Positions 3,405 to 18,922 of a stretch of DNA of 18,935 nt are shown here, piece by piece. The notes beneath the pieces were generated by a model. The model worked only from the letters and a program-made list of their open reading frames with translations. It was not told where the DNA came from and did no database searches. The DNA is from Sphingobium sp. (lineage in GTDB: Bacteria > Pseudomonadota > Alphaproteobacteria > Sphingomonadales > Sphingomonadaceae). Numbering within the stretch: the first letter of the stretch is position 1; each line of letters opens with the position of its first letter. Position numbers and translations under genes: made by a program. The stretch spans positions 1 to 18,935 of the forward strand of contig JASBTC010000079.1 of the NCBI GenBank assembly GCA_030148625.1, in the 5' to 3' direction.

Positions 3405-4428
3405 GCAACCCCACTGATAGCGCGTAGAAATTCGAACAATTGTAATCGAGGATGACCCGATAATTTCCGGTTAGCAGATAGGCGGTTTTTCCAGGACCGT
3501 CGGGTTCGAGCAGTGACGCCATCTCGGTATCGCGGATGCGTGGCCCCGATGTCTGGACAATGCCCAGGCGGCGCCACTCGGCCATGCTGAGATAGCGGCT
3601 GTGGCGATCATGCACGCGTGGGCAACGCGGCGAATTGATCCTGCTGCGCAACGCCGCGCGATCGAGCCCGGCGGGCACGTTGACCGCAACGCCCCAGGGC
3701 ACATTGGGCCGCCAGCCGGCATTGACGAAATAATTGGCGATGGAGGCGAGCGCGTCGGCCTCGCTGGTCCAGATGTCCTTGCGCCCGTCGCCGTCGCCGT
3801 CGCGCGCCATGCGAAGATAGACCGAGGGCAGGAATTGCGGATATCCGGTCGCCCCTGCCCAGCTTCCGACCAGGCGGCTGCGCGGCACACCCTGATCGAT
3901 CATCTTGAGCCCGGCAATGAACTCGCCCGCGAAGAGATCGCGGCGGCGCCCTTCATAGGCCAGGGTCGCGAGCGCGCGCAGCAGGTCGAAACTGCCCATG
4001 ACCGAGCCATAACCCGTCTCATGACCATAGATTGCGACCATGATCGATTCGGGCACACCGGTTTCGCGCTCGATTCGCGCGAGATGGTGGCGCAGCGCCT
4101 GATATTTGGAACGCCCGCGATTGATCCGCGGCGCATCGACATGCTTGATCCGATATGGCGCGAAGTTCGGGATCGGCGCATTGACCGAACCGCCGGGCTG
4201 ATCGCGGTCGAGTTCGACCACGCGGGCGTTGAAGGTCAGTGTCGGCATCACCGAATCGAGCGTGGCGCGGCTGACGCCCTGGCGTTCGGCCTGGGCGCGC
4301 AGCGCGGGAAGGTAGGCCTGAAACGCCGCCTCCTCGCTTTGCGCGGCCGCGGGTGCCGGCGCGAGCAGGCCGGTGACAGGCAGCGCAACCGCCGCCAGAG
4401 ACATCGAAATCGGGATCAAAAGACGCAT
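3382..4428 (-). CDS. mltB: Lytic murein transglycosylase, MltB/Slt35 family
   Basis: Periplasmic enzyme that cleaves the MurNAc-GlcNAc bond to give 1,6-anhydro products. The protein is 348 residues from the chosen start, with a Sec signal peptide (about 1-30). The catalytic Glu is Glu137 in the motif GHETGYG. ATGYPQFLPS follows, then an Asp/Gly-rich EF-hand-like loop (DGDGDGRKDIW) typical of the MltB group, and the C-terminal YNCSNFYALSVGLLAD. The reading frame extends upstream to 4503, but the ATG at 4428 is preferred because GGGGAG lies four bases upstream of it and it begins a clean signal peptide. It is the first gene of the minus-strand operon. No lipobox Cys is visible, so it should be a soluble form. 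Confidence 0.92.
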   Translation of the reverse strand: MRLLIPISMSLAAVALPVTGLLAPAPAAAQSEEAAFQAYLPALRAQAERQGVSRATLDSVMPTLTFNARVVELDRDQPGGSVNAPIPNFAPYRIKHVDAPRINRGRSKYQALRHHLARIERETGVPESIMVAIYGHETGYGSVMGSFDLLRALATLAYEGRRRDLFAGEFIAGLKMIDQGVPRSRLVGSWAGATGYPQFLPSVYLRMARDGDGDGRKDIWTSEADALASIANYFVNAGWRPNVPWGVAVNVPAGLDRAALRSRINSPRCPRVHDRHSRYLSMAEWRRLGIVQTSGPRIRDTEMASLLEPDGPGKTAYLLTGNYRVILDYNCSNFYALSVGLLADEVER

Positions 4429-4515
4429 ACAACTCCCCAATGGGCCGGCAGACTGCCACAGGCATCGCCCTGCGTGAATCCCCTTTCGACCCGCATCCCG
4501 CACATCGGGGCGTTG

Positions 4516-4521
4516 ATTATA
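4516..4521 (-). promoter_or_regulatory. -10 element (TATAAT) upstream of the mltB-rlpA-dacC-tmk-holB operon
   Basis: A perfect TATAAT on the minus strand in the divergent space between mltB and tRNA-Ser. It would place transcription start near 4509 and give a leader of about 80 bases. No good -35 is seen at 17 bases, so strength is uncertain. TATGCG occurs 26 bases upstream, a partial match to the motif found before the peptide genes. Confidence 0.5.
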
Positions 4522-4566
4522 GGCCCCCTTCCCCTTTTCGCATCGAACGCATATGCCGCGCGAGCC

Positions 4567-4656
4567 GGACGGGTGGCCGAGTGGTTTAAGGCAGCGGTCT
4601 TGAAAACCGCCGTGGGTGCAAGCTCACCGTGGGTTCGAATCCCACCCCGTCCGCCA
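4567..4656 (+). tRNA. tRNA-Ser (anticodon UGA)
   Basis: Complete class II tRNA of 90 bases. The acceptor stem pairs GGACGGG (4567-4573) with CCCGTCC (4646-4652), followed by discriminator G and an encoded CCA. The anticodon stem is GCGGT/ACCGC around the loop CTTGAAA, with TGA at 4601-4603. A long variable arm (about 4611-4628) identifies serine. The T stem GTGGG/CCCAC encloses TTCGAAT. It reads UCA and, by wobble, other UCN codons. It diverges from the murein operon and borders the accessory patch on its right. Confidence 0.98.
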
Positions 4657-4658
4657 AA

Positions 4659-4721
4659 GGCCGCCTATTGCCCTCTATGGCGCGATATCGCCACCGATCA
4701 CCGCATCGCCACTAGGCGGCC
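4659..4721. repeat. Inverted repeat just downstream of tRNA-Ser
   Basis: GGCCGCCTA (4659-4667) and TAGGCGGCC (4713-4721) form a perfect 9-base inverted repeat. Inside it is a second one, TGGCG/CGCCA (4678-4682 and 4689-4693), around CGATAT. It could be a processing or termination structure for the tRNA. No T tract follows. The rest of the space to the arr start shows no gene. Confidence 0.55.
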
Positions 4722-4851
4722 AATAACCGCCATTTCTACGCTACAGTCTGATATGCCTTGAAGATGAGCGACGACAGCTATCGACCTCATCGCGGACGTT
4801 GGCGCCTAGCTCACTGACTAAAAGCAGACTCATAAGATGAGGACGATGACG

Positions 4852-5274
4852 ATGACCGAAGTGCTGGACGAGGGACCGTTCTTTCACGGCACAATCGCGG
4901 ATTTGCGCGTGGGTGATTTTCTCACCGCAGGGTACCGGTCGAACTATCGTCCTGAAGTGGTGATGAACCACATCTACTTCACGGCCATTATGGACGGTGC
5001 CGGACTTGCCGCTGAAATCGCGGCGGAACTCACCGAAGGCGGCGCAGCCCCGCGTGTTTATGCCGTAGAGCCGACCGGGGCATTCGAGAACGACCCGAAC
5101 GTGACCGACAAGAAATTTCCCGGCAACCCAACGCGGTCGTATCGCAGCAGCGCACCGCTCAAGGTCACTGGCGAAATCACGCATTGGACCAGATTGACGC
5201 CCGAGGCACTACAGATGTGGAGAGAACGACTGACCGCACTGCGCTCAGACGAACGAGGCGAAATCATCAACTGA
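4852..5274 (+). CDS. arr: Rifamycin (rifampin) ADP-ribosyltransferase Arr
   Basis: Transfers ADP-ribose from NAD+ to a hydroxyl of rifamycins and so inactivates them in the cytoplasm. The small single-domain protein shows family landmarks throughout: FFHGT near the N-terminus (NAD-binding His), NHIYFTA (Tyr), VEPTG, and DPNVTDKKFPGNPTRSYR (Asp and the long conserved block), ending with a GEIT(H/D)W-like segment. It looks full length and intact. In-frame ATGs exist at 4837, 4846 and 4852; AGGA at 4840-4843 sits eight bases before 4852, so that start (140 residues) is preferred. It is the first gene of a short accessory patch beside tRNA-Ser. Whether it confers resistance here depends on expression, which the sequence does not show. 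Confidence 0.93.
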   Translation: MTEVLDEGPFFHGTIADLRVGDFLTAGYRSNYRPEVVMNHIYFTAIMDGAGLAAEIAAELTEGGAAPRVYAVEPTGAFENDPNVTDKKFPGNPTRSYRSSAPLKVTGEITHWTRLTPEALQMWRERLTALRSDERGEIIN

Positions 5275-6812: not shown

Positions 6813-8561
6813 TCAACGGGCACAGCCCTGCGCGTCGGCGCCGGGAACGCGTTCCCATTGATAGGCATCGACCGTTTCGCCGCGCGGCAGATATGTGACC
6901 GGGAAGATCCTGTCCGCGCGCCGCACGCGCAGCGTCAACCGCTCAGCCTGCTCGCCCTGGATACCGTCCTGCGGCACCGGGTCGACGATTTCGTCGCCGT
7001 CCCTGAGACCTGCCTGCGCCGCCGCGGATCCCGGTACCAGGCCGCGCACCACGCGCTTGGGCTCGGCCAGCACATCGGTCAGGAAACCGAGCTCGTAGCG
7101 GCGCAGCTTCTTCGTGATCCGGCGAAAGCAGGATCCGAAAGCGTCGGAGGCCGGAACCGGCATCCGTCCATCCAGAAAGGCCCGGAATTCGTCGACCGCC
7201 CCGGCCCCCAGATGCCTGGCAAGCAGCATCTCCCAATCGGCATTGGTCGTCGCCTTGCCCGATTTCTCGGTCGCCAGCATGGCGAGCATGAGATCGTCGA
7301 GACTGGTCTTGCCGCCGGAGGCCTTGCGCAGTGCATCGTCGACGGTGACGAAATAGAGCATGCCGCGATCATAGGGCAGCGTTCGCACACGCGTATCGGC
7401 CCAGAAACGCAGCGGCACCCGGCTGTTGGGGGCATGCGCCATGCTGCTGGTATAATAGCGCGCGGCCGTCCAGTTAACGTCCGCAATGAACTCTTCCGCG
7501 CTCAGCATGTCGAAGCGGAATGGCAGGCGCGCCTGGTAGAAGGTCGCCAGTCCTTCGCCGAACCATGAGGATTCGAGCCCCGCCGGCTGGGTGATGAACG
7601 GCTGGAAGGTATGGAACATCTCGTGTGCCAAGGTCAGCCGGATCTTCGCGACGTCGGATCCGCGCCCCTTGCCGAAAGTGGTGACGAAGGACCGGTGGAG
7701 GCCGACGCCGCCACCCGCATTGATCGGATTATAGCGCAGGAACACCCCGTAAGGCGGCGCACCGGTCTGGCCGAAGAAGCGTGCATAATGGCTGTAGAGC
7801 TTGCCCGTCCAGGCGAGCAGCGCGTTGGCGTCGAAGCCGGGATCGCCCTGCCACGCGCCGAAAAAGCCGGTCCCCGACGGATCGGACGGCCAGGTGCCGA
7901 TCCGTCCGCCCATGAAGAAGCTCATGCGCAGTTCGGTGCCGTCGAGCGGCTCTGCGGCGGTGATAATCCCCTCCCCCAGCGAACTGACGCCCCGGCTGCC
8001 CTTGGGCGCGCGCGACAAATCCCAGCCGAAAGTGGTGCGATAGCGGTGCTCGCCGGGCGGCAGCAACAGGAAGACATGACCGGTCGCCGAGACCCCACCG
8101 CCATCGGCGGAAAAGGCGAAGGGCGGTGCCGGGCCGCGCGGTGGCAATGTCGCCTGGGCGGGCACGCTGTATGCCACGGTCACCGGCCCGCGCACCGCAC
8201 GATCGACGATCCATTCGCGCGAGGGACCACCGCCCACCGCGTCGCGCATGCCGGTTTCGGGCAGGTCGACATCGCGGGCGCTCAACCGCAAGGGGCCGGC
8301 ATCGTCACGCGCGGAAATGCCGGCGATCACCGTGGCGACGGTATCGACATTGCTGGCGACCTTGGGCAGGCGTAGCAGCACCTCGCCTGGTCCGGCCGCA
8401 ATGCCGTCCAGGCGCAGCGTCACCCGGACGGTCTCGATCCGCGCCGGGGCCGTGCGCGACGCAATTGGGGCCAGCGTCAGCGAAAGCGCGGGCTCGGCAT
8501 GTGCCGGCGCGGTGAGAAGCGGGGCCGAAGCGAGCCCGGTGATGATCAATGCCAGCCGCAT
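6813..8561 (-). CDS. Exported M61-like zinc peptidase with PDZ domain
   Basis: Predicted periplasmic gluzincin aminopeptidase/endopeptidase of the M61 (glycyl aminopeptidase) type. The 582-residue protein has a Sec signal peptide (about 1-22) and a beta-rich N-terminal domain (about 25-220). The catalytic domain carries HEMFH at 313-317 and the third ligand Glu336 in WFGEG, exactly 18 residues after the second His, giving HExxH-X18-E. A PDZ-like domain lies near the C-terminus (about 498-550, with GLVPGSAAAQAGLRDGDEIV). The ATG at 8561 has GGAG about eight bases upstream. It follows the TonB-dependent receptor gene by 70 bases, separated by a strong hairpin. Its place at the end of the locus suggests it trims imported peptides. 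Substrate specificity cannot be read from the sequence. Confidence 0.85.
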   Translation of the reverse strand: MRLALIITGLASAPLLTAPAHAEPALSLTLAPIASRTAPARIETVRVTLRLDGIAAGPGEVLLRLPKVASNVDTVATVIAGISARDDAGPLRLSARDVDLPETGMRDAVGGGPSREWIVDRAVRGPVTVAYSVPAQATLPPRGPAPPFAFSADGGGVSATGHVFLLLPPGEHRYRTTFGWDLSRAPKGSRGVSSLGEGIITAAEPLDGTELRMSFFMGGRIGTWPSDPSGTGFFGAWQGDPGFDANALLAWTGKLYSHYARFFGQTGAPPYGVFLRYNPINAGGGVGLHRSFVTTFGKGRGSDVAKIRLTLAHEMFHTFQPFITQPAGLESSWFGEGLATFYQARLPFRFDMLSAEEFIADVNWTAARYYTSSMAHAPNSRVPLRFWADTRVRTLPYDRGMLYFVTVDDALRKASGGKTSLDDLMLAMLATEKSGKATTNADWEMLLARHLGAGAVDEFRAFLDGRMPVPASDAFGSCFRRITKKLRRYELGFLTDVLAEPKRVVRGLVPGSAAAQAGLRDGDEIVDPVPQDGIQGEQAERLTLRVRRADRIFPVTYLPRGETVDAYQWERVPGADAQGCAR

Positions 8562-8631: not shown

Positions 8632-10917
8632 TCAGAACGACCGCGCCAGCGTCACGCCGACGGTCCGCGGTTGAGTGAACAAGGCGGTCGGCACATTCAC
8701 GCCGTTGCGGTTGTCCGCCGCGGTCACGCCGCGCTTGTCGAACAGGTTGCGGACGAACAGATTGACGCTCCAGTCCCGATCATAGGTCAGGCCGCCGCGA
8801 ATATCGACGCTGGTATATTCGGGCAGCAGGATGCGTGGGCGCGTCGCATTCGCGGCATTGGTCACGAAGGTGCCCGCACGATCGCCGACATAGATCACCG
8901 TGAAGCCCAGATTGCCCTCCAACGTGTCGCTCAGCGTGAAGCTTTGCTGCGCGGTGACATTGGCAGTGACCTTCGCCGCGAACGGTAAGCGATCGCCCGC
9001 CAGTCCCCTCAGACCCGTGGCGCCCGCCAATGTCGGCAGGTCCTGGGTCAGCGTCGCATCGGTGAAGGTCAGGTTGGTGTCGATGCTCATCCCCGCCCAG
9101 GGCGTCAGGTTCGCAGCGAATTCCAGGCCGCGGCTGCGCGCCTTGCCGCCGTTCGTCAGAAAGGTGAGCGAGCTGACCGAATCCGTGCCCTGGAGCTGGA
9201 TGTTCTTCCAGTCGATCTGGAACAGCGACGCGTCGATGGTCAGCAGGCCGGGAACGACCTTGCCCTTGAAGCCCAGTTCATAGTTGAGCACGCGATCCGG
9301 GCCGAACGAACCATCCACCGAGGGCGGCGCCGCGATGTTCGGGCCGCCGGGGCGATAGCCGGTGGCGATGCGCGCATAGGCGATGATGTCACGCGAGAAA
9401 TGATAGTTGGGCGAAATCAGCCAAGTGAAGGCGCTGTCCTTCGAATCGCCGATCGTTGTGCCCGATCCGAACACCGGAGCCACCGTCGCCGATGTGTTGA
9501 GCGTCGATTCATTGTGCTGCTTGTTGCGCGAATAGCGGCCGCCCACCTGGATATCGAGCTTGTCGGTGGCGTGCCAGGTCAGATCGGCAAAACCCGCATA
9601 TTCGCGATAGCTGCCCGGACCTTCACCGATATAGGGCCTGGCGTCGAGGCTGCCCGAGGCGATCAGCGTCTGATCGGTCGCGGCATGCTCGATGGTGTAG
9701 AAGCCGCCGGCGAGCCAGCTGAAGCTGGTGCCGATATCGCCGCTGAAGCGCACTTCCTGCGAGAATTTATGCGTGCGATCGGCGTTGGCGATCTGCACCG
9801 TCGGCGCCGTCGCTAGCCCGTAGAGCGAGCGCAGCAGTCCGCCGAACACGGCGCTGACATCGCTGGTGATGACATTGTCCGCGCGGCTCCACGCGCTGAT
9901 CGAGGTGATGTTGACGCCGCCCAGGTCGAGCTCGGCGCGCGCCGTATAGAGCTGGAACTTCGCCTTGTTGATCGAATCGAGCGCATTGAGCGTCAGATCG
10001 CCATAGACCGGATCGAAGGTGGTGACTGCCGTCGCGCGGTTGGGCGAGGTGGTGAGCGTGCAGGCCGCGCAGATCGGCACGCCGCCCGAAGTGATGGCAA
10101 GATCGCTGTTCATCGCGTCCTGCTTCTGACGGAGCGCCGAAAGCACGATGCGAAGATTGTCGGACGGCTTGATCAGCGCCGCGCCACGGAAACCCCAGAC
10201 TTCGCGGGTGTTGACGTTCTTCGCCTTCAGCGCCTTGGGATTGATGTTGTCGAGCCATGCCGCATCATCGCGCTTGAAACCGCTGCCGGCGACGGCCAGC
10301 CAGTCGGTGATCGGCACATTGACCGATCCGCGCACCGCATAGCCGGTGTCGCCGTGCGAGACGGCGGTGCCGCCCAGTTCGATCCGGCCGGAGAATTCGC
10401 GCGTATCGGGTTCCTTCAGCACATATTTGATCAGGCCGCCCAGGCTCGACGCGCCATAGAGCGTGCCCTGCGGGCCGCGCAGCACTTCGACCCGGCTGAC
10501 CGCGCTGGCATCGAAATCGGGGAGCGGCGGCTGGCCGGTGCCGGTGGTGCCGCCGAACTGGACGTCATCGACCAGCAGCGCGACGGTGGGCGAGGTCGCC
10601 CCACCGGTGGTGACGCCGCGCAGTGCGATCGAGGACACGCGCTGGCCCGAATATTGGAGGCCGGGCACGCGATCGAAGAATTCCGAGAGGCGGTTGATGT
10701 TCTGCGTCGTCAGCGTCTCAGCCGAAATCGCGCTGATCGCGACCGGCACGTCGAGCAGGCGCTCGGCGCGCTTCTGCGCAGTGACGATGATTTCGCCGGC
10801 ATCGTTACCGCTTTCGACGCCTTCGGCGCTCTGCGGGTCCTGCGCCATCGCAGGCATCGATACCGTGAGGGCGAGGATCGCCGCCGACATGGAAATAGCA
10901 AGTTTCTGGTTCTTCAT
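8632..10917 (-). CDS. TonB-dependent outer-membrane receptor
   Basis: Ligand-gated outer-membrane barrel that imports a substrate using the TonB-ExbBD system. The protein is 761 residues from the chosen start, with a signal peptide (about 1-26), a TonB-box-like GEIIVTAQKR (about 41-50), a plug domain containing VEVLRGPQGTLYGASSLGG, then a long barrel ending in Phe (VTLARSF), as expected for outer-membrane assembly. The frame runs upstream to 11016, but the ATG at 10917 is chosen because GGAGG at 10926-10930 sits eight bases away and the signal peptide starts there. It has its own leader of roughly 160 bases and a putative activator-type promoter. Neighbouring peptidases, permease and aminotransferase suggest a peptide ligand; this is inference, as siderophore or sugar uptake use the same fold. 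Confidence 0.94.
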   Translation of the reverse strand: MKNQKLAISMSAAILALTVSMPAMAQDPQSAEGVESGNDAGEIIVTAQKRAERLLDVPVAISAISAETLTTQNINRLSEFFDRVPGLQYSGQRVSSIALRGVTTGGATSPTVALLVDDVQFGGTTGTGQPPLPDFDASAVSRVEVLRGPQGTLYGASSLGGLIKYVLKEPDTREFSGRIELGGTAVSHGDTGYAVRGSVNVPITDWLAVAGSGFKRDDAAWLDNINPKALKAKNVNTREVWGFRGAALIKPSDNLRIVLSALRQKQDAMNSDLAITSGGVPICAACTLTTSPNRATAVTTFDPVYGDLTLNALDSINKAKFQLYTARAELDLGGVNITSISAWSRADNVITSDVSAVFGGLLRSLYGLATAPTVQIANADRTHKFSQEVRFSGDIGTSFSWLAGGFYTIEHAATDQTLIASGSLDARPYIGEGPGSYREYAGFADLTWHATDKLDIQVGGRYSRNKQHNESTLNTSATVAPVFGSGTTIGDSKDSAFTWLISPNYHFSRDIIAYARIATGYRPGGPNIAAPPSVDGSFGPDRVLNYELGFKGKVVPGLLTIDASLFQIDWKNIQLQGTDSVSSLTFLTNGGKARSRGLEFAANLTPWAGMSIDTNLTFTDATLTQDLPTLAGATGLRGLAGDRLPFAAKVTANVTAQQSFTLSDTLEGNLGFTVIYVGDRAGTFVTNAANATRPRILLPEYTSVDIRGGLTYDRDWSVNLFVRNLFDKRGVTAADNRNGVNVPTALFTQPRTVGVTLARSF

Positions 10918-11168
10918 TTTTCTGGCCTCCACTGAATCTATTCGGGCGTCCGATCCGCATGGCGGGGATCGTCCATCCTTGGCCTCTCTCTCCAGCTCGG
11001 CAGGAACCACGACCATGTCGCCTTCCCGATGAGCCTCCCCTGGTTCGAGGCCAGGCGAATTTTACGCGTGCGCCACCGCCATATTTATTCGGAATTGGGG
11101 TTCCCGACCCGCTTCGCGCATAAGTTTTCGCGGATCGCGTGCCTGATCGATCAAGATTGCCCGCCCCT
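10918..11168 (-). other. Leader and promoter region of the receptor gene
   Basis: A 251-base space between the aminotransferase stop and the receptor start. It holds the motif/-10 pair at 11085-11129 and the receptor Shine-Dalgarno GGAGG at 10926-10930. If transcription starts near 11078, the untranslated leader is about 160 bases. The part of the receptor frame that extends upstream (10918-11016) looks non-coding and is not counted as protein. No riboswitch or small RNA is recognised. Confidence 0.6.
11085..11129 (-). promoter_or_regulatory. Putative activator site and -10 element upstream of the receptor gene (copy A)
   Basis: On the minus strand: GAAAAC, then TTATGCGCG (11123-11115), 23 bases, then CGAATAA (11091-11085). 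The last reads as a -10-like element. No -35 hexamer is visible 17 bases upstream of it. The TATGCGC block would fall at about -36 to -44, the usual place for a class II activator. Copies B and C share this layout. Confidence 0.5.
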
Positions 11169-12338
11169 TCATCGGCCCAGTGCCGGCTGCGGCATGCGGG
11201 CATAGGCGCGCAGCCCCTCTTCCAGCCCGGCCAGGCCAGCATCGAGCCGGTCGTCTTCCTGGCAGAAACCGATGCGGATGCGGCCGGGCGCCCCGAAATA
11301 TTCTCCGGGCGCGACGATTACGCCCGAACGCGCGATCAGCCATTCGGAAAAGGCGCGGCTATCGGCGATGCCGGGCAATGACGGAAAACAGATGCAGCCA
11401 TCGTCGGGCAGTTCGCCGCCCATCAACCCTTCGGCCACCATCATGTCGAACCAGGCCTGGAAACGCGGCCGGCAGCGCGCGACGACGCGGCGCGAATTCT
11501 CTTCGAACGATGCGGCATTGGCCATGACATGCGCGGCGACGGCGTGCGACAATGTCGAGATGCCGAACTCGATCTGGCCGTTGAGCCGGCTCAGCCGCTC
11601 CACCACCGCCGGCGCACCGACGATCCAGCCGCAGCGCAGCACGCCCAGCCCGTAGATCTTGGTCAGGCTCGACAGGCTGACCACCGCCGGGGACAGCGCA
11701 GCGGCGGCACCGGGGCGCCGATCCTTCGACGCATAATCGCCATAGACCTCGTCGACGACGAGCAGGAAACCGCGCCGTTCGGCGAGATCGGCCAGCGCGC
11801 GCAATACTGGCTGCGGCGTCGCCATGCCCGACGGATTATGCAGGTCCGACAGCACCACCAACCGCGTATTCGGACGCAGCCGTGCTTCCACGTCCGCGAC
11901 GTCGATGAGGAAGCGGTCGCCATGGCGGCGAAAGCTCTCGACCGAGGCGCCCGATGCTTCGGCAAGATAGGCGAACAGGTCGAAACCGGGCGTTTCGATC
12001 AGGACATGATCGCCGGGACGGACGAATGTGCGATAGATCAACGACAGGCCGCCGGTGGCACCGGTGGTGCAGAGCAACTGGTCACGGCCGACGCCATAGC
12101 GTTCGGCCAGCATATCGAGGACGAACGGATTGCCGTCACCAAAGGCGCTGACATAGTAGCTTGAGAAATGCGGCTCGGCGGTTTCGAGAACCATCTGGCG
12201 CAGCAATTCACGCGGCTCGGGCACGGAGCTTTCGAACAGGCTGACCGCCTGCCCGTCCCTTGCGCGGGCCACGGCAAGCGCGCCGCGCACCCATCGCGCA
12301 TAGCTTTCACCCTCAAGCGTCGGCGGTGTGGCCGGCAT
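11169..12338 (-). CDS. PLP-dependent aminotransferase, class I/II fold
   Basis: Cytoplasmic fold-type I PLP enzyme, expected to transaminate an amino acid. The protein is 389 residues from the chosen start. Motifs: phosphate-binding TGATGG (92-97), HNPSG with Asn168, VVDEVYGDY with Asp196 and Tyr199, Schiff-base Lys227 in SSLTKIYG, Arg235 nearby, and a C-terminal RIRIGF Arg for substrate carboxylate. An ATG at 12356 also exists; 12338 is preferred because AAGGA lies seven bases upstream. It is separated from the permease by 98 bases containing its own putative promoter, so it can be expressed apart from the operon above. Some relatives in this fold are amino-acid cyclases such as capreomycidine synthase, so an aminotransferase reaction is likely but not proven. 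Confidence 0.88.
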   Translation of the reverse strand: MPATPPTLEGESYARWVRGALAVARARDGQAVSLFESSVPEPRELLRQMVLETAEPHFSSYYVSAFGDGNPFVLDMLAERYGVGRDQLLCTTGATGGLSLIYRTFVRPGDHVLIETPGFDLFAYLAEASGASVESFRRHGDRFLIDVADVEARLRPNTRLVVLSDLHNPSGMATPQPVLRALADLAERRGFLLVVDEVYGDYASKDRRPGAAAALSPAVVSLSSLTKIYGLGVLRCGWIVGAPAVVERLSRLNGQIEFGISTLSHAVAAHVMANAASFEENSRRVVARCRPRFQAWFDMMVAEGLMGGELPDDGCICFPSLPGIADSRAFSEWLIARSGVIVAPGEYFGAPGRIRIGFCQEDDRLDAGLAGLEEGLRAYARMPQPALGR

Positions 12339-12388
12339 TTCATCTTCCTTGAACATGACGTCTCTCTACCGGCCAGGGCGGGCACTAA

Positions 12389-12435
12389 TTATTCGATCTT
12401 GGGCAAGCCGGCGCCGATTGCGCATAATTTGCGCA
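12389..12435 (-). promoter_or_regulatory. Putative activator site and -10 element upstream of the aminotransferase gene (copy B)
   Basis: On the minus strand: TGCGCA-N5-TGCGCA (12435-12419) is an inverted repeat that includes AAATTATGCGCA. It is followed by 23 bases and CGAATAA (12395-12389). The spacing is identical to copy A. It lies in the 98 bases between the permease stop and the aminotransferase start. No -35 is seen. Confidence 0.5.
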
Positions 12436-12436
12436 G

Positions 12437-13771
12437 CTATTCGCCCAAAGCGCGCTTGGCCTGTTCGGAGGAGTCCCACCGCCCTTTGGCGAACCAGTAG
12501 ATCAGGCCGACGACCAGCCAGCCACCGACCAGCAAATAGGGGCGCGGATCGGCCTCGACCCCGAAGATGCCGACGAGCAGCGCGCAGACCACACCGGCAT
12601 AACCCGCCGCCACAACCACCCTGCGCGACAGCTTCAACTTCGACCGCGCGTGGATCTCGGGATGGCGGCGCGCGACCACGGTCGCCGAATAGGAACAGGC
12701 CATATATTTGAGCATGGTCGGCACGTTGACCGCGAGCAGCAGGAAGATCAGGCTCGGCGGCAGCAACAGGCCCGACATCGCACAGACATAGCCGAACAGG
12801 ATCGCCCGGTGCGGCGTGCCGAAACGCGGATGGATCGCGCCGATGGTGCGCGGCAAAGCGCCGTTGCGCCCCATCGCGAACAGGCTGCGCGAAAAGGTGA
12901 GTGCGGCGGCATTCATCGACTTGACGATCGAGAAGCAGGCGGCACCGACGATCAGCGGCACCGCGAGATCGCCCAGCACGACCTTTGCCGCATCCAGCAA
13001 CGGCGCCTGGCTTTTCGCCAGCGCCGCCGGCCCCACAAGGCCAAGCGCGGTGACCGCGACCAGGCCATAGACCAAAGCGGTCAGCCCGATCGCCAGCGCG
13101 ATGCCCAAAGGCACGTTGCGCTGCGCATCGCGCACCTCTTCGCCGATCTCGACCGCGGATTCGATGCCGAGGAACAGGCTGATCATCAGCGGTACCACCG
13201 CGAGGATGGCGAGCGGCGGCGTATCGAGCGGATTGCCGACCAGCTTTGCATCGAAATGCGGCAGGCCGGTTACGACGAAGATACCAAGGATGATCAACAG
13301 CAGCGCCATCAACTGCGCCTGCACCCGCGCCGCCATCGACACGCCGACATAATTGAGCGCGAAGACCGCGGTGATCGTGACCGCCATGCCGAGCTTGAGC
13401 GGCACCGGAAACACCATGCCGAGATAGCTGATCATCACCTGCGACAAGATGGTGAGCGCGCCGACATTGGAGATGATCCGCAGCCAGGCGATGATGAAGC
13501 CGACACCCGGATGGATGAAGCGCTTGGGCCATTCATAGGACGCACCCGACACCGGCAGCGCCGATCCGAGATAGGCATAGACCAGCGCAAAGACGAGCAT
13601 CGGCAGTGCCGCGACACCGATCGCGGCGAGCAGCCCCGATCCCGCCACCTGTGCGGTGGGCTGGAGGATCGAGAAGATCGAGACGCCGATCGCGGTGCCC
13701 GCGCCGAAGGTGACGACGCCAGTCAGCCCGACGCTCTTGTGCAGCACTCCCTCTTGAGCGACGGCCGTCAT
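12437..13771 (-). CDS. APC-superfamily amino-acid permease
   Basis: Inner-membrane secondary transporter, predicted to import amino acids or small derivatives. The 444-residue protein is almost entirely hydrophobic, with about 12 membrane segments. The first segment has the unwound glycine-rich motif FGAGTAIGVSIF (about 22-33), which binds the amino and carboxyl groups of substrate in this family. GxESAVEIGEEVRDAQRNVPLGI (split around 203-225) is the typical loop after segment 6. The start overlaps the S10 gene stop (ATGA at 13768-13771), so translation is probably coupled. Its place directly after exported peptidases fits uptake of the amino acid they release. Substrate is unknown. Confidence 0.9.
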   Translation of the reverse strand: MTAVAQEGVLHKSVGLTGVVTFGAGTAIGVSIFSILQPTAQVAGSGLLAAIGVAALPMLVFALVYAYLGSALPVSGASYEWPKRFIHPGVGFIIAWLRIISNVGALTILSQVMISYLGMVFPVPLKLGMAVTITAVFALNYVGVSMAARVQAQLMALLLIILGIFVVTGLPHFDAKLVGNPLDTPPLAILAVVPLMISLFLGIESAVEIGEEVRDAQRNVPLGIALAIGLTALVYGLVAVTALGLVGPAALAKSQAPLLDAAKVVLGDLAVPLIVGAACFSIVKSMNAAALTFSRSLFAMGRNGALPRTIGAIHPRFGTPHRAILFGYVCAMSGLLLPPSLIFLLLAVNVPTMLKYMACSYSATVVARRHPEIHARSKLKLSRRVVVAAGYAGVVCALLVGIFGVEADPRPYLLVGGWLVVGLIYWFAKGRWDSSEQAKRALGE

Positions 13772-15255
13772 TCGCCGCCGCTCACAAATGCGCGCAGGTC
13801 GCGGATCAGTGCGCCTCGTGCCTCGACACCGACATAGGGCATATGGCCGGACGGATAGGCGTGGAAGCGCGTCGCCGACAGCGGCACGCCGACATGGGTG
13901 AGCGTATATTCCGCGCTGCCGATCGGCGTGACGAGATCGTACCAGCCGGTGCCGACCATCAATCGCATCGCCGGATTGCGGCTCATCGCGGCCGCCAGAT
14001 CGGTGCCGTAATTGCGTCCCACCGGCACGCCGGGGCCGAAGCCGTAATCCCAGCGCCCGTTGACCTCACGGAACGCGATCGGTTCGTAAGGCAGGTCGAG
14101 CGTCACTTTCAGCGTCTTCGCCGCATAATCATTCCACGCAGCGACGAAACCGGGCACATATTGGCCCATCGCCGGATCGTCGGCGACGGGATCGCCGCCC
14201 GCCCCCTGCGACGGCAGCACGAAACGCGCATCGTACATGCCGACGCGCTGGCCGCGATCCGCCAGCAGCAGCCTGGCGAAGGCCGTACCCGAAATCCGGA
14301 GGTCGGCGGCGAGGATATCCTTTTCGCCGATGCCGGTCAGCGCCGACATCTCACGCGCGACCGCCGCCTTGCGATCGGCGGGCAGGCGCGAACCGGCATG
14401 GAGCGCCGACAGATAGCCGCTATCGATGAAGCGGCGCGCGGCCTGTGCCTGCCCTTCCGCCGTGCAGCCGGCGGCGACCTTGCCGAAATGGCAGGCGGTC
14501 GCGGCCAGCGACGGCAGGATGTTCAGATAGGCGCGATCGTCGCCCTCGGCCCCGCGCGCCATGTCGAGCGCCTGGCCGAGCAGGACGACGCCGTTGAGCG
14601 TCAGCCCGTCCATCCCGCCGGTCTGGGTCGGCCCGCCCGCCATCAGCCGCGCCATCACCGCCGCGCGGATCGTGCCATAGCTTTCGGAGACCAGATATTT
14701 GGGCGAATTGCCGCGGCCGTGACGGCGCAACCATTGGCGCATCACCTCCACCATCGCTTTGGCATCCTGTTCGACGCCATAATATTGCTCGACCTTGGTG
14801 CCTGGCAGCACCCGGCTATAACCGGTGCCCGGCGGATCGATCAGCACGATATCGGCCGCGTCGAGCGGACTGTCGGGATTGGCGACGGTGCCGAAGGGCG
14901 CAACGGTGCGCGGGTTCGCGGGATCGTCGAAATCGACACGGCGCGGCGCCATCAGCCCCATATGCAGCCAGATCGAGGCCGAACCCGGCCCGCCATTGAA
15001 CGCGAAGATCACCGGACGCGCGGTAACATCCTTCACATCGCTGCGGAGATAGCTGGTTGCGAAGATACTCGCGCCGGGCAGCAGAAATTCCTCGACCGCC
15101 GCCGAATAGCGCAGCCGCGTTCCGCCGATTTCAGCCTGTCCTTCCGACCGGAAGATGCGTGGCTCCGCCATGGCTTGCGGCGGCGACGGCTGCGCTTGCG
15201 CGACCCCGGCCGCCAGCATCAACGCCAGGGCGGTGATCGCGCGATCAATACGCAT
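13768..15255 (-). CDS. Exported S10-family serine carboxypeptidase (first paralogue)
   Basis: Periplasmic alpha/beta-hydrolase that removes C-terminal residues from peptides. The protein is 495 residues from the chosen start, with a signal peptide (about 1-21). The oxyanion-hole motif NGGPGSAS is at 88-95, the nucleophile Ser192 is in SESYG, Asp440 in GWYD and His471 in PSGHMPY, so the triad is complete. The ATG at 15255 has GGAGAG seven bases upstream and overlaps the amidohydrolase end by 11 bases. ATGs at 15261 and 15270 are in-frame alternatives, the latter with AAGGG upstream. It lies between the amidohydrolase and the permease in an overlapping operon. The nucleophile elbow has SES where most relatives have GES. 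Confidence 0.9.
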   Translation of the reverse strand: MRIDRAITALALMLAAGVAQAQPSPPQAMAEPRIFRSEGQAEIGGTRLRYSAAVEEFLLPGASIFATSYLRSDVKDVTARPVIFAFNGGPGSASIWLHMGLMAPRRVDFDDPANPRTVAPFGTVANPDSPLDAADIVLIDPPGTGYSRVLPGTKVEQYYGVEQDAKAMVEVMRQWLRRHGRGNSPKYLVSESYGTIRAAVMARLMAGGPTQTGGMDGLTLNGVVLLGQALDMARGAEGDDRAYLNILPSLAATACHFGKVAAGCTAEGQAQAARRFIDSGYLSALHAGSRLPADRKAAVAREMSALTGIGEKDILAADLRISGTAFARLLLADRGQRVGMYDARFVLPSQGAGGDPVADDPAMGQYVPGFVAAWNDYAAKTLKVTLDLPYEPIAFREVNGRWDYGFGPGVPVGRNYGTDLAAAMSRNPAMRLMVGTGWYDLVTPIGSAEYTLTHVGVPLSATRFHAYPSGHMPYVGVEARGALIRDLRAFVSGGE

Positions 15256-17332
15256 CGGCATGCTCTCCATGATCGAGCCCTTCCCGTGCGGCCAATTTCT
15301 CTGCCGGCCGGATCGCCGGCGCGGTGGTGAAGGGCTGGATGCCCAGCGCACTGTGGATCTCCGACGGAAAATAGACCACCCCGCCCTTCATCACCATGCG
15401 CGGGCGGCGGATCGCGGTGATGTCACGCGTCGGGTCGCCGGGCACCAGCACGAAATCGGCGAGCTTGCCGCGCACGATGCTGCCCAGCCGATCGGCGCGA
15501 CCCAGAAACTCCTCGGCGCCCAGCGTCGCGGTACGCAACGCCTCGGCCGGGGTCAGGCCAGCCTTCACATAGAGCTCGATCTCACGTTGCACTGAAAAGC
15601 CCGTCGCGTCATCGGTGCCGGGCAACAAGCGGATGCCCGCCTTGTGCAGCATTGCGATCGTTTCGAGCATCTTGTCGAAGCCGGACTGGTAGGCCGCATC
15701 CTCCGCCTTGTTCGCGATCGTCACGAAGGACCGCTTGCGATAGCGCTGGAAGCCGATCGGCATGTGCGACAGGAAATCCTCCTGCCCCGGCGGTACTTGC
15801 CCGGCGCGGCTGAGCATGAGCTGTTCCAGGATGACGGCGGTGGTGTCGAGCGCGGTGCCGCGCGTCTTCATCAGGCCGACGGTACGCTGGACTGTCTCCG
15901 CATTCAGATCGAGCGACCCGGCGCGCGCCATCGCGGTCAGGCGCAGCGGCGTGCGGCTGTCCTCGCCCGGCTTCAGGATCCAGCCGAGCATCAACTGGTT
16001 AATATGCGCGATCGAATCATAGCCATCGGTGATCATCCGGTCGGGCGAGGTGAAGGCGGGCACATGGCCCGTCATCTTCAACCCCAGCCGATGCGCTTCC
16101 GCCGCGATCGGCTTCACCCAATCGGGGTTCATCGAATTGTAGATCTTGATCTCGGCATAGCCGCGATCGGCGTACCAGCGCACATTCGCCAAGGCTTCCT
16201 CCACCGTCGCGGGGATGAAACCGAAGCGCGCCGAATAGGGGCTGCGCCCTTCGATGAAACCGTTGGCCACGATGCGCGGCCAGGCGACCTCGCCCGCGTC
16301 GATCTTCGTCAGCAGCCCCTGGAGGAAGCCATTGTCATTGCCCATGTCGCGCGTCGCGGTAACGCCGGCAGCGAGATACATCAGCCCGGCGGGCAGCGTC
16401 GCGTGCGAATGCATGTCGTGCAGGCCGGGATAGAGCGTGCCGCCCTCGCCATCGATCACCACTTCGTCCGCCGGCACGGGCCGCCCGTCCTCCGCCGTCA
16501 CCTGCGCGATCGTGTCGCGCATGACGACAACGCTCGACAGCGGCGAAAGCGCGCCCGTCACGGGATCGAAGACGCGGACGTTGCGCACGCGCACCGGCGC
16601 GTCGAAACGGTGCGCCAGTTTCTGCTGGAGCTGTAAGGCGCGTTCGGTTTCCAGCTCAGAACCGAGCTTGCCCAGTATCGGCACCGCCGCTTCATAACCC
16701 GCGCGGATCGTCGTCCCTTCTGCCGAAGGGCCGAACAGCGCAAACAGCTTCTGTTCGCCATCGAGCAGCAAATAGCTGGGATTGAGCTGGACGCCGGTCA
16801 GCCGCCACGCGGTCACCTGCGTCGCGGCGGCGCCCTCGCCCAATGTCAGCGTGCGCAGCTTCTCCATCGTGATCCGGCCCGAGGGCAGCACAGCGATGCT
16901 GTGGCCCGGCGCCGCGAGCGCCGCGCGCGCATAGACCCAGATCGCATAGGGGCTGTCGTCATTGGCCACGTAGAGCGGCGGCCGATCCGCCTTGAGGGTG
17001 CCGTGATCGGCCTGGCTCGTCCAGCGCGCGCGGCCACCCGACCAGACGAAGTTTTCGTCGACCGCGCCTCCCATCAGCGACGAGCCCTTGATCGTCCAGG
17101 CGGTCGGGATACCCTGCGCGTCGAAGGTCAGTTCTTCACGATGCTTGGGGCCGCGCCCATTATTGTCGATCCGGTAATCGACGGTGGCGCGGTCGCCCTC
17201 GCTGTCGATGACGAGCGAGCCGACGCTCTCGCCGTTGGACAGGATCGACAGCCGCTCGGTCGCGGCAAAAGCGATGGGCGACGCAGCGAGGAGCAGCGTG
17301 GCGGCAAGCGTGCCTGCGAAAACGCCCCTCAC
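15245..17332 (-). CDS. Exported amidohydrolase with N-terminal beta-rich domain
   Basis: Predicted periplasmic metal-dependent amidohydrolase of the prolidase/imidazolonepropionase-like branch. The 695-residue protein has a signal peptide (about 1-23), then about 220 residues of beta-rich sequence (NGxxVGSL, DNNGRGPKHREEL) unlike the catalytic fold, then the amidohydrolase domain from about 247. Metal ligands visible are His308 and His310 in HDMHSH, Lys396 in EIKIYN (probably carboxylated), His423 in TGHVP, His443 in IAHIN, and Asp574 in GTDD. Start is GTG, overlapping the previous stop (GTGA at 17329-17332). It lies between two S10 peptidases in the same operon. Several enzymes of this branch are Xaa-Pro or Xaa-Lys/Arg dipeptidases, so a peptidase role is plausible but inferred. 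Confidence 0.88.
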   Translation of the reverse strand: MRGVFAGTLAATLLLAASPIAFAATERLSILSNGESVGSLVIDSEGDRATVDYRIDNNGRGPKHREELTFDAQGIPTAWTIKGSSLMGGAVDENFVWSGGRARWTSQADHGTLKADRPPLYVANDDSPYAIWVYARAALAAPGHSIAVLPSGRITMEKLRTLTLGEGAAATQVTAWRLTGVQLNPSYLLLDGEQKLFALFGPSAEGTTIRAGYEAAVPILGKLGSELETERALQLQQKLAHRFDAPVRVRNVRVFDPVTGALSPLSSVVVMRDTIAQVTAEDGRPVPADEVVIDGEGGTLYPGLHDMHSHATLPAGLMYLAAGVTATRDMGNDNGFLQGLLTKIDAGEVAWPRIVANGFIEGRSPYSARFGFIPATVEEALANVRWYADRGYAEIKIYNSMNPDWVKPIAAEAHRLGLKMTGHVPAFTSPDRMITDGYDSIAHINQLMLGWILKPGEDSRTPLRLTAMARAGSLDLNAETVQRTVGLMKTRGTALDTTAVILEQLMLSRAGQVPPGQEDFLSHMPIGFQRYRKRSFVTIANKAEDAAYQSGFDKMLETIAMLHKAGIRLLPGTDDATGFSVQREIELYVKAGLTPAEALRTATLGAEEFLGRADRLGSIVRGKLADFVLVPGDPTRDITAIRRPRMVMKGGVVYFPSEIHSALGIQPFTTAPAIRPAEKLAAREGLDHGEHADAY

Positions 17333-18825
17333 GGCCGGCGTACCAGTGCGCGGATATCGTCGCCGATCGCCTTCGCGGTCGCCGCCACCGAATAGCCGGT
17401 ATGGCCGCCGTCATAATAGCGCAGCGTCACCCGCGCCGGATCCCAGCCCGATTGCGTCGCCAGCAGTTCGGCCGCCCCCATCGTCGTCTGGGTATCGTAG
17501 ATGCCGTTGCCGATCAGCAGACGGAAATCGGGATTTCGCGCCATCATCGCGCTGATTCCCTGATAATAGGGCCAGTCGGCAAAGGGGCTCGTGCCCTCGC
17601 CCCAGCCCCAATCCTCCAGGCTGGTGATGCCGACCGCGGCGACATAGGGATCGCTCCACGTCACCTTCAGATCGTCGCGCAGATAGATGGGTAGGAATTT
17701 CTGGACACCTTGCATCAGCACGTCCGATGGATCGGGCCCATTGCCCTTATCGGTGATCGGCGCGGTGTAGCGCGCATCGGCGCGGCCGAGCAGCAGGCCC
17801 CGATCCTTGAGCAGTTCCGCGCGATAGCGTTCCTTGCTGATCTTCAGCCCGTTGGCGAGATACCAGTCGGCCGGGATGCCGCTAAACTCTGCGAGCCGCG
17901 CGGCAACGCGCCTTTTGTCGGCGTCCGACGCGGCGCTGCCCTGATACAGCACGGTTAAATACTCGCCCTTTGCGAAGGCGCGCGCATCGGCCAGGAACGC
18001 ATTGAGCCCGCGCCCCTTGCGATCGGCGCGGCCGTGATACCAGCCGATCGCGGCGACCGTCGGCAAGGACGCGACATAGCTGGTGATATTGGCCGGGCGC
18101 TGCGAATATTCGATGATATTGGCGGCTTGGCCATAAAGGAAAATGCCGGCCAGCGGCAGCGGATCTGGACCGGCGGCAAGCTGGCCGGCAATCTCCGCCG
18201 CGCGATTGGTGCCATAGCTTTCGCCGGTCAGATACACCGGAGATCCTTCGCGGCCGTGCTGTTTCAGCCAGGCGCGGATATAGGCCGCGAACTGGCGCGC
18301 ATCGGCCTTGACCGAGAAATAGGCCCTGGGATCGGTGCCCGGCGCGACACGGCTGAAACCGGTCGATGCTGGATCGACGAACACCATGTCGACCGCGTCG
18401 AGCGGGGAATAGTCGTTGGCGACCAGGCGGAAGGTCGATGGATCGGCGCGGACATCGTCGGGATAGGCCACGCGCTTGGGTCCGATGCCGCCGATATGCA
18501 GATATTGCGCGGCGACGATCGGCCCGCCGTTGAACAGGAACATCACCGGCCGCTTCGCGACGTCTACGCCATCGCGCGTATAGGCGAAGCTCACGATGCG
18601 CGCGGACTCGTTCTGGCCGGTCGCGATCGAGATCCCCTCCACCGTCGCCGTATAGGCGACCGCCTGCCCGCCAAAGCGGCCCTGATGGCGCGTGACCACG
18701 GCGGGATGATCGACCTGATCGGTGACGGGCCCGGCGCCGGGTTGCTGCGCAACGGCGGGCACTGCCAGGACGAGCGCGAGTGCCGTCCCCAGTGCCAGGG
18801 TAAGCTGTGATCCGATGGCCTTCAT
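17329..18825 (-). CDS. Exported S10-family serine carboxypeptidase (second paralogue)
   Basis: First gene of the peptide operon. The protein is 498 residues with a signal peptide (about 1-26) and the S10 fold. The triad is present: Ser203 in GESYG, Asp444 in GIYD and His475 in DGGHTGY. The oxyanion-hole region reads NGGPIVAA (99-106), where the family and the neighbouring paralogue have NGGPGSxS, so substrate or rate may differ. The frame extends to a GTG at 18852, but the ATG at 18825 is preferred: GGAGGA lies 10 bases upstream and the signal peptide starts there. The two S10 proteins are clearly diverged, so this is an old duplication or separate recruitment. The stop overlaps the amidohydrolase GTG. 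Confidence 0.9.
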   Translation of the reverse strand: MKAIGSQLTLALGTALALVLAVPAVAQQPGAGPVTDQVDHPAVVTRHQGRFGGQAVAYTATVEGISIATGQNESARIVSFAYTRDGVDVAKRPVMFLFNGGPIVAAQYLHIGGIGPKRVAYPDDVRADPSTFRLVANDYSPLDAVDMVFVDPASTGFSRVAPGTDPRAYFSVKADARQFAAYIRAWLKQHGREGSPVYLTGESYGTNRAAEIAGQLAAGPDPLPLAGIFLYGQAANIIEYSQRPANITSYVASLPTVAAIGWYHGRADRKGRGLNAFLADARAFAKGEYLTVLYQGSAASDADKRRVAARLAEFSGIPADWYLANGLKISKERYRAELLKDRGLLLGRADARYTAPITDKGNGPDPSDVLMQGVQKFLPIYLRDDLKVTWSDPYVAAVGITSLEDWGWGEGTSPFADWPYYQGISAMMARNPDFRLLIGNGIYDTQTTMGAAELLATQSGWDPARVTLRYYDGGHTGYSVAATAKAIGDDIRALVRRP

Positions 18826-18875
18826 CTGCGATTGGTCCTCCAATCCCGCCACCTTATGGACGCCGCCGCGAAATG

Positions 18876-18922
18876 GTTATGCGAAGATCGAATGCGTCCT
18901 GCCGAAGCGCGCATAGAATTTT
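18876..18922 (-). promoter_or_regulatory. Putative activator site and -10 element upstream of the S10 operon (copy C)
   Basis: On the minus strand: GGAAAATT, CTATGCGCG (18916-18908), 24 bases, then CGCATAAC (18883-18876). This is one base longer in the spacer than copies A and B, with CGCATAA instead of CGAATAA. No -35 is visible. It would start transcription about 50 bases upstream of the first ATG. Confidence 0.42.

Follow-up and report, generated by a model that had tools for sequence, protein, structure and literature searches.

A long-spaced inverted repeat ahead of three transcription units of a sphingomonad peptide and amino-acid uptake cluster as a likely Lrp/AsnC-family operator

The window, the whole 18,935-nucleotide stretch of Sphingobium sp. 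DNA that we analysed, carries on its minus strand a peptide/amino-acid uptake cluster made up of the following genes:

17329..18852, minus strand: S10a, serine carboxypeptidase family, listed as an open reading frame from GTG (more likely from ATG 18825) and the first gene after site C
15245..17332, minus strand: amidohydrolase family
13768..15351, minus strand: S10b, second serine carboxypeptidase family gene
12437..13771, minus strand: amino-acid permease family
11169..12356, minus strand: PLP-dependent class I/II aminotransferase family
8632..10917, minus strand: TonB-dependent receptor, from ATG 10917

A further protein of 582 amino acids, encoded at 6813-8561 on the minus strand, gave no Pfam or NCBIfam match at E 0.001. 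It is kept along with the cluster and has an HEMFH (HExxH-type) stretch, and perhaps represents an undescribed metallopeptidase family. Scanning a species-genome collection with an alignment of the aminotransferase gave 61 loci, in most of which this gene is surrounded by relatives of most of the window's cluster genes in one of two main arrangements; the cluster was not seen in five distant loci (L057-L061). The closest relative of the window has an aminotransferase that is 94% identical. In locus L002, an ornithine cyclodeaminase-family gene (OCD) lies between S10a and the amidohydrolase gene (4009-4977). Only a short match to it is left in L003 (4837-4998), and there is none in L001 (position 5010) or the window.

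The spaces upstream of the receptor and aminotransferase genes had been described in the first-pass annotation as sharing a motif at equal spacing. Both copies are present, as TTATGCGC-N24-CGAATAA on the minus strand at 11123-11085 (copy A) and 12427-12389 (copy B), and these two matches in the window compare with 0 in 200 shuffles. The spacer is 23 bases long if the G/A that follows TTATGCGC is counted as motif, as it was in that annotation, and 24 otherwise. Taken alone, neither half is clearly enriched in the window (TATGCGC, 7 found and 4.4 expected; CGAATAA, 2 found and 1.3 expected). A third copy, C, had been missed; it reads CTATGCG-N26-CGCATAA and lies ahead of the first S10 peptidase gene, at 18916-18877 on the minus strand. 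CGAATAA is a degenerate CGCATAA, one base off, and CGCATAA is the reverse complement of TTATGCG, so that the repeated feature is a long-spaced inverted repeat, TTATGCG-N25/26-CGCATAA. The inverted nature of the halves had also gone unnoticed, as had a TAnnnT block that follows all three copies at an equal distance. The arms and the proposed -10 elements are:

11117..11123, minus strand: site A (receptor), left arm TTATGCG
11085..11091, minus strand: site A, right arm CGAATAA, at about -39 to -33, previously read as the -10
11059..11064, minus strand: proposed -10 TAAAAT of the TonB-receptor promoter, with a start near 11052 and a leader of ~135 bases to ATG 10917
12421..12427, minus strand: site B (aminotransferase), left arm TTATGCG
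12389..12395, minus strand: site B, right arm CGAATAA, previously read as the -10
12363..12368, minus strand: proposed -10 TAGAGA of the aminotransferase promoter, with a start near 12356, the A of the open reading frame's ATG
18910..18916, minus strand: site C (first S10 peptidase), left arm CTATGCG
18877..18883, minus strand: site C, right arm CGCATAA
18851..18856, minus strand: proposed -10 TAAGGT of the S10 operon promoter, with a start near 18844, followed by GGAGGA at 18841-18836 and ATG 18825

Both arms and their spacing are conserved. Across the 61 loci and the window, some of which are near-identical, TTATGCG...CGCATAA pairs with a total mismatch of at most 1 occur 9 times at a spacing of 25 and 10 times at a spacing of 26 (19 pairs), and 0-2 times at every other spacing from 0 to 80. 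A site profile trained on 15 of the spacing-25/26 pairs was then scanned over the loci. Among close-type loci (the window and L001-L011) it found sites ahead of the aminotransferase gene in 12/12, with those of L005 and L006 weak, ahead of the receptor in all 9 that have a receptor there, and ahead of S10a or OCD in all 8 that show that space. Alignment of the orthologous spaces, which had been suggested as a check, thus bears out the site. Aminotransferase-side sites could be aligned in 21 of the 61 loci, and in the profile scan most loci of the second cluster type had no recognised site there; their sites are placed elsewhere, for example between the Lrp and 582-amino-acid genes. In a set of 26 sites, which leaves out the near-identical loci L001, L003, L006, L008, L011, L042, and L044 from the full set of 39, the two arms hold 1.7 and 1.5 bits per base. 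The spacer has a mean of 0.2-0.4 bit per position, and the earlier observation that the spacers of copies A and B are unrelated in sequence therefore extends to the relatives.

The kinship of the two arms was assessed with a profile built from left arms only, with the TTAT core excluded, and with 283 further TTAT sites in the non-coding DNA of these loci as controls. With the core set aside, right arms are similar to left ones (p = 2e-8), the median right-arm score being reached by 10% of control sites, and the core itself is present in 22 of 26 right arms. At the aminotransferase and receptor sites, the right arm is more degenerate than the left. Copy B had also been seen to contain an inverted repeat, TGCGCA-N5-TGCGCA, taken as a sign of a dimeric protein. 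The sequence supports a dyad-symmetric half-site of dimer type. The TGCGCA repeat itself is indeed exact in copy B, and among aligned sites it is exact there alone, its orthologues reading CGCGCAAATTATGCGCA, GATCAAATTATGCGCA or GGGCAAATTATGCGCG; as a conserved element it was rejected.

The TAnnnT block is the third conserved part of the site. Counted from the first base of the right arm, TA lies at offset 26 or 27 in 39/39 aligned sites, with TAnnnT there in 29; at other offsets up to 89, the count of TAnnnT in these sites is 0 or 1, except for 7 at offset 4, within ATAA. The block was also at its offset in 15 of 19 hold-out sites, including sites with the right arm TGCACAT or CGCAAAA. These hold-out sites are 17 intergenic matches from the profile scan (spacing 25/26, score of at least 15, absent from the alignment) together with L050 (score 13.6) and L116, and the four that lack TAnnnT are L040 4662, L002 13747, and two of L059, a locus without such a cluster. 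TAnnnT would therefore be a better -10 than CGAATAA, putting the right arm on the -35 region. With the -10 lying 20 bases beyond CGAATAA, TTATGCG would span about -71 to -65 and CGNATAA about -39 to -33. No -35 hexamer at a spacing of 16-18 bases was seen in the window sites.

This geometry bears on the class II activator-dependent promoter proposed in the first-pass annotation, with CGAATAA as the -10 and TATGCGC as an activator site at -36 to -44. CGAATAAT does look like a -10, and the right arm of several relatives has changed by drift to AGAATAAT. Against that layout, the conserved TA and TAnnnT lie further downstream in both aligned and hold-out sites, right arms match left arms outside the core, and 7 of 22 aminotransferase sites (the window, L001, L002, L003, L007, L008, and L011) have an open in-frame ATG at offset 39/40, 7 bases beyond TAnnnT. 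An activator site next to a -10 at CGAATAA was accordingly not what the comparison found, and we regard the layout as highly improbable. In five more aminotransferase sites, the ATG at 38-40 is out of frame. In the window and the six loci with the in-frame ATG, the aminotransferase mRNA is possibly leaderless, starting at the A of that ATG. The window gene has a second ATG at 12338 with AAGGA ahead of it. For S10a, the listed GTG at 18852 lies upstream of the proposed transcription start; ATG 18825 is more likely to be the true start, as GGAGGA precedes it and a signal-peptide-like sequence opens there.

We searched genomes with a three-block pattern, TATGCR-N25/26-NNNATAA-N20/21-TANNNT. In 14 whole genomes it gave 14 matches, which fall in 10 of the genomes, and tblastn of the surrounding stretches placed all 14 within the cluster; the reversed control gave 2 matches, and four of the 14 genomes had none. 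The earlier suggestion to scan genomes for the site thus yields one that, in these 14 genomes, is restricted to this cluster. A stricter search with exact TATGCG-N25/27-CGCATA, superseded by the looser three-block pattern, had found 7 sites in 5 of the 14 genomes, 4 of them in the cluster, with 3 in the reversed control. Across 397 genomes from the family, 56 matches to the three-block pattern were found in 31 genomes, with 32 matches for the reversed control. Ten of the 56 lie in six cluster-bearing genomes (G001, G002, G006, G018, G236, and G304), eight being confirmed by cluster genes with tblastn and the second sites of G236 and G304 being judged by sequence and distance only. The other 46 lie elsewhere, many in AT-rich genomes and repeats. 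Set against the 32 of the reversed control, these 46 show the pattern to be close to chance level outside the cluster, and a wide regulon was rejected on the same figures. Two short motifs might also share a spacing by accident, and either half, taken singly, is about as frequent in the window as chance predicts. The shuffles, the preference for spacings of 25/26, the TAnnnT block, the cluster-only matches in 14 genomes, and the hold-out sites all speak against such a coincidence, which conservation has already refuted and to which we assign a negligible probability.

A candidate for the protein that binds the repeat is encoded next to it. An Lrp/AsnC gene is divergent from S10a in L001, L002, and L003 and from OCD in L009, with the repeat in the intervening space, and an Lrp match lies within the examined flanks of 35 of the 61 loci; Lrp/AsnC was among the regulators that the first-pass annotation had listed for testing. 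The L001 protein matches the NCBIfam model of E. coli Lrp (E 3e-32) and Lrp/AsnC structures in the PDB such as 2gqq. It falls below the cut-off of the E. coli Lrp equivalog in NCBIfam, where scores of 111.6 and 107.7 bits stand against a required 233. Judging from the relatives, the window's own Lrp gene would be just past its right end. A conserved outward -10 for the Lrp gene within site C was considered and rejected, with TA at offset 26/27 in one of seven readable divergent sites (L005) and TAnnnT in none of the seven. Among the nine best Lrp stretches, six (L111-L115 and L117) lack a spacing-25/26 repeat in the neighbourhood of the Lrp gene.

The repeat could instead be the operator of another regulator encoded elsewhere, since sites stand ahead of the aminotransferase gene in L007, L008, and L010, whose examined flanks show no Lrp gene. 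The corresponding genomes (G411, G005, and G016) do carry an Lrp of 74, 75, and 68% identity on the same-numbered contig, from a few to 9 kb past the flank. A genome search for the Lrp protein, which covered nine genomes and left out L011, found in 9/9 one Lrp that is 55-100% identical, with the next best at 34-46%. Furthermore, a survey of 11 loci for other open reading frames of at least 90 residues outside the mapped genes found none common to three or more of them. We therefore consider a different regulator improbable.

The form of the site also points to the linked Lrp. The palindrome GCAT-N5-ATGC occurs in 14/14 spaces where an Lrp gene precedes the 582-amino-acid gene; the TTATGC of the window looks like one half of it, and the window sites are degenerate versions. 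In nine loci of the second cluster type (L015, L018, L021, L023, L025, L027, L029, L030, and L050), this space has the full GCAT-N5-ATGC upstream and TTGCACA instead of CGCATAA, which by its sequence is a related but altered right site. Four other loci (L017, L024, L028, and L056) have in this space an identical palindrome, GCATAGTCTATGC, followed by CTGCGATCATGCGC, which is not the usual right arm. Several marks of the Lrp/AsnC family were thus found, namely a linked regulator of Lrp/AsnC sequence, semi-palindromic dimer sites of 13-15 bp, and multiple sites in helical alignment, the arm spacing being 25/26 only, or 27-28 bases between 13-mers. For this family, a review describes in its available text sites that are aligned by two or three turns of the helix (PMC2995911).

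The repeat, its spacing, the conserved -10-like block, the restriction to the cluster, and the linkage to an Lrp gene can all be read from the DNA, and with good confidence we propose that a pathway-specific regulator of the Lrp/AsnC family uses the repeated motif as its operator, on which one octamer would hold two dimer sites and would probably activate. Most likely, three transcription units of the cluster share a control site bound by the Lrp-family regulator of the adjacent gene. Each operator would consist of two degenerate 13-base palindromes (at best GCAT-N5-ATGC) that face each other, one dimer site centred near -72 and the other near -32 on the -35 region, with the TAnnnT -10 at a fixed distance. 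Both sites are probably gripped by a single octamer around which the DNA wraps; once it has bound an amino acid of the pathway, this octamer would help RNA polymerase onto the promoters of the S10-amidohydrolase-S10-permease operon, the aminotransferase gene, and the TonB receptor gene. The inducer may be an amino acid released from the cluster's peptides. Uptake and breakdown would in this way be switched together, and the comparative data support the shared site, suggested earlier from the window, that would coordinate uptake and catabolism.

The same Lrp operator could act in the opposite sense, with a dimer on the -35 region blocking RNA polymerase until the amino acid loosens the weaker right site. 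The right site does cover the -35 region, and its arm is the more degenerate one in the aminotransferase and receptor sites. BarR, an Lrp-family regulator of Sulfolobales, remains DNA-bound, and a ligand-dependent change of sites has been proposed for it (PMC10201364, available text). However, promoters with no -35 hexamer at a spacing of 16-18 bases, as seen in the window sites, should be weak when unaided, and the alphaproteobacterial PutR, encoded divergently from its target, is described as an activator in the available part of its report (PMC6168545). Because of these two points we lean modestly towards activation, although the direction of control cannot be read from sequence alone, and view repression as a serious but unlikely alternative.

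The activating Lrp-type operator has partial parallels, which we draw from the available text of the respective papers. The barR gene is, like the Lrp gene here, that of an Lrp-family regulator; it is divergent from an aminotransferase gene, and an aminotransferase is its target. BarR has several semipalindromic dimer sites at separations of 17 and 27-29 bp, with 27 and 29 bp both reported and 27-28 here, and an octamer with wrapped DNA, as we infer for our sites (PMC10201364). In contrast to our sites, BarR is archaeal and its 15-bp sites have another sequence (TTG...CAA type); here there are two sites per promoter, at three promoters of a TonB receptor/peptidase cluster with a bacterial -10 (PMC10201364). 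PutR, the Lrp-like activator of putA in Caulobacter and other Alphaproteobacteria, is likewise alphaproteobacterial, Lrp-like, and divergent from the catabolic gene that it controls (PMC6168545). Its target is putA, whereas the divergent neighbour in the loci read here is S10a or OCD, and the available text on PutR names no operator motif. The HypR and HutC regulons of Proteobacteria are amino-acid catabolic and include TonB-dependent transporters, and in the case of HypR also ornithine cyclodeaminase; they belong to another set of regulators, and Lrp/AsnC is named nowhere in the available main text of that paper (PMC5343134). None of the papers listed in searches of a literature collection dealt with this regulon or with control of this cluster. 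What is new is a regulon of a known regulator family with an unusually strict promoter geometry.

This geometry may amount to a promoter class in which an Lrp octamer replaces the -35: one dimer would occupy the -35 position, another would lie upstream with its centre 40-41 bp from that of the first, and the -10 would be a bare TAnnnT at constant distance, an arrangement kept across Sphingomonadales and Caulobacterales loci. We hold this as a tentative proposal, somewhat short of an even chance. PhoB and phage MotA sites take the place of the -35, and if the proposal is true, the class would resemble them in giving an Lrp-type activator a strict positional code. The analysis thus proposes how a conserved cluster for peptide/amino-acid uptake may be controlled, naming the regulator, its operator, and the promoter geometry. 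Lrp sites are generally hard to predict from sequence, being degenerate, as a review states in its available text (PMC2995911). Here the fixed spacing makes them findable, with 14/14 matches in 14 genomes lying within the cluster, and therefore the regulon, as well as whether an Lrp can replace the -35, becomes directly testable.
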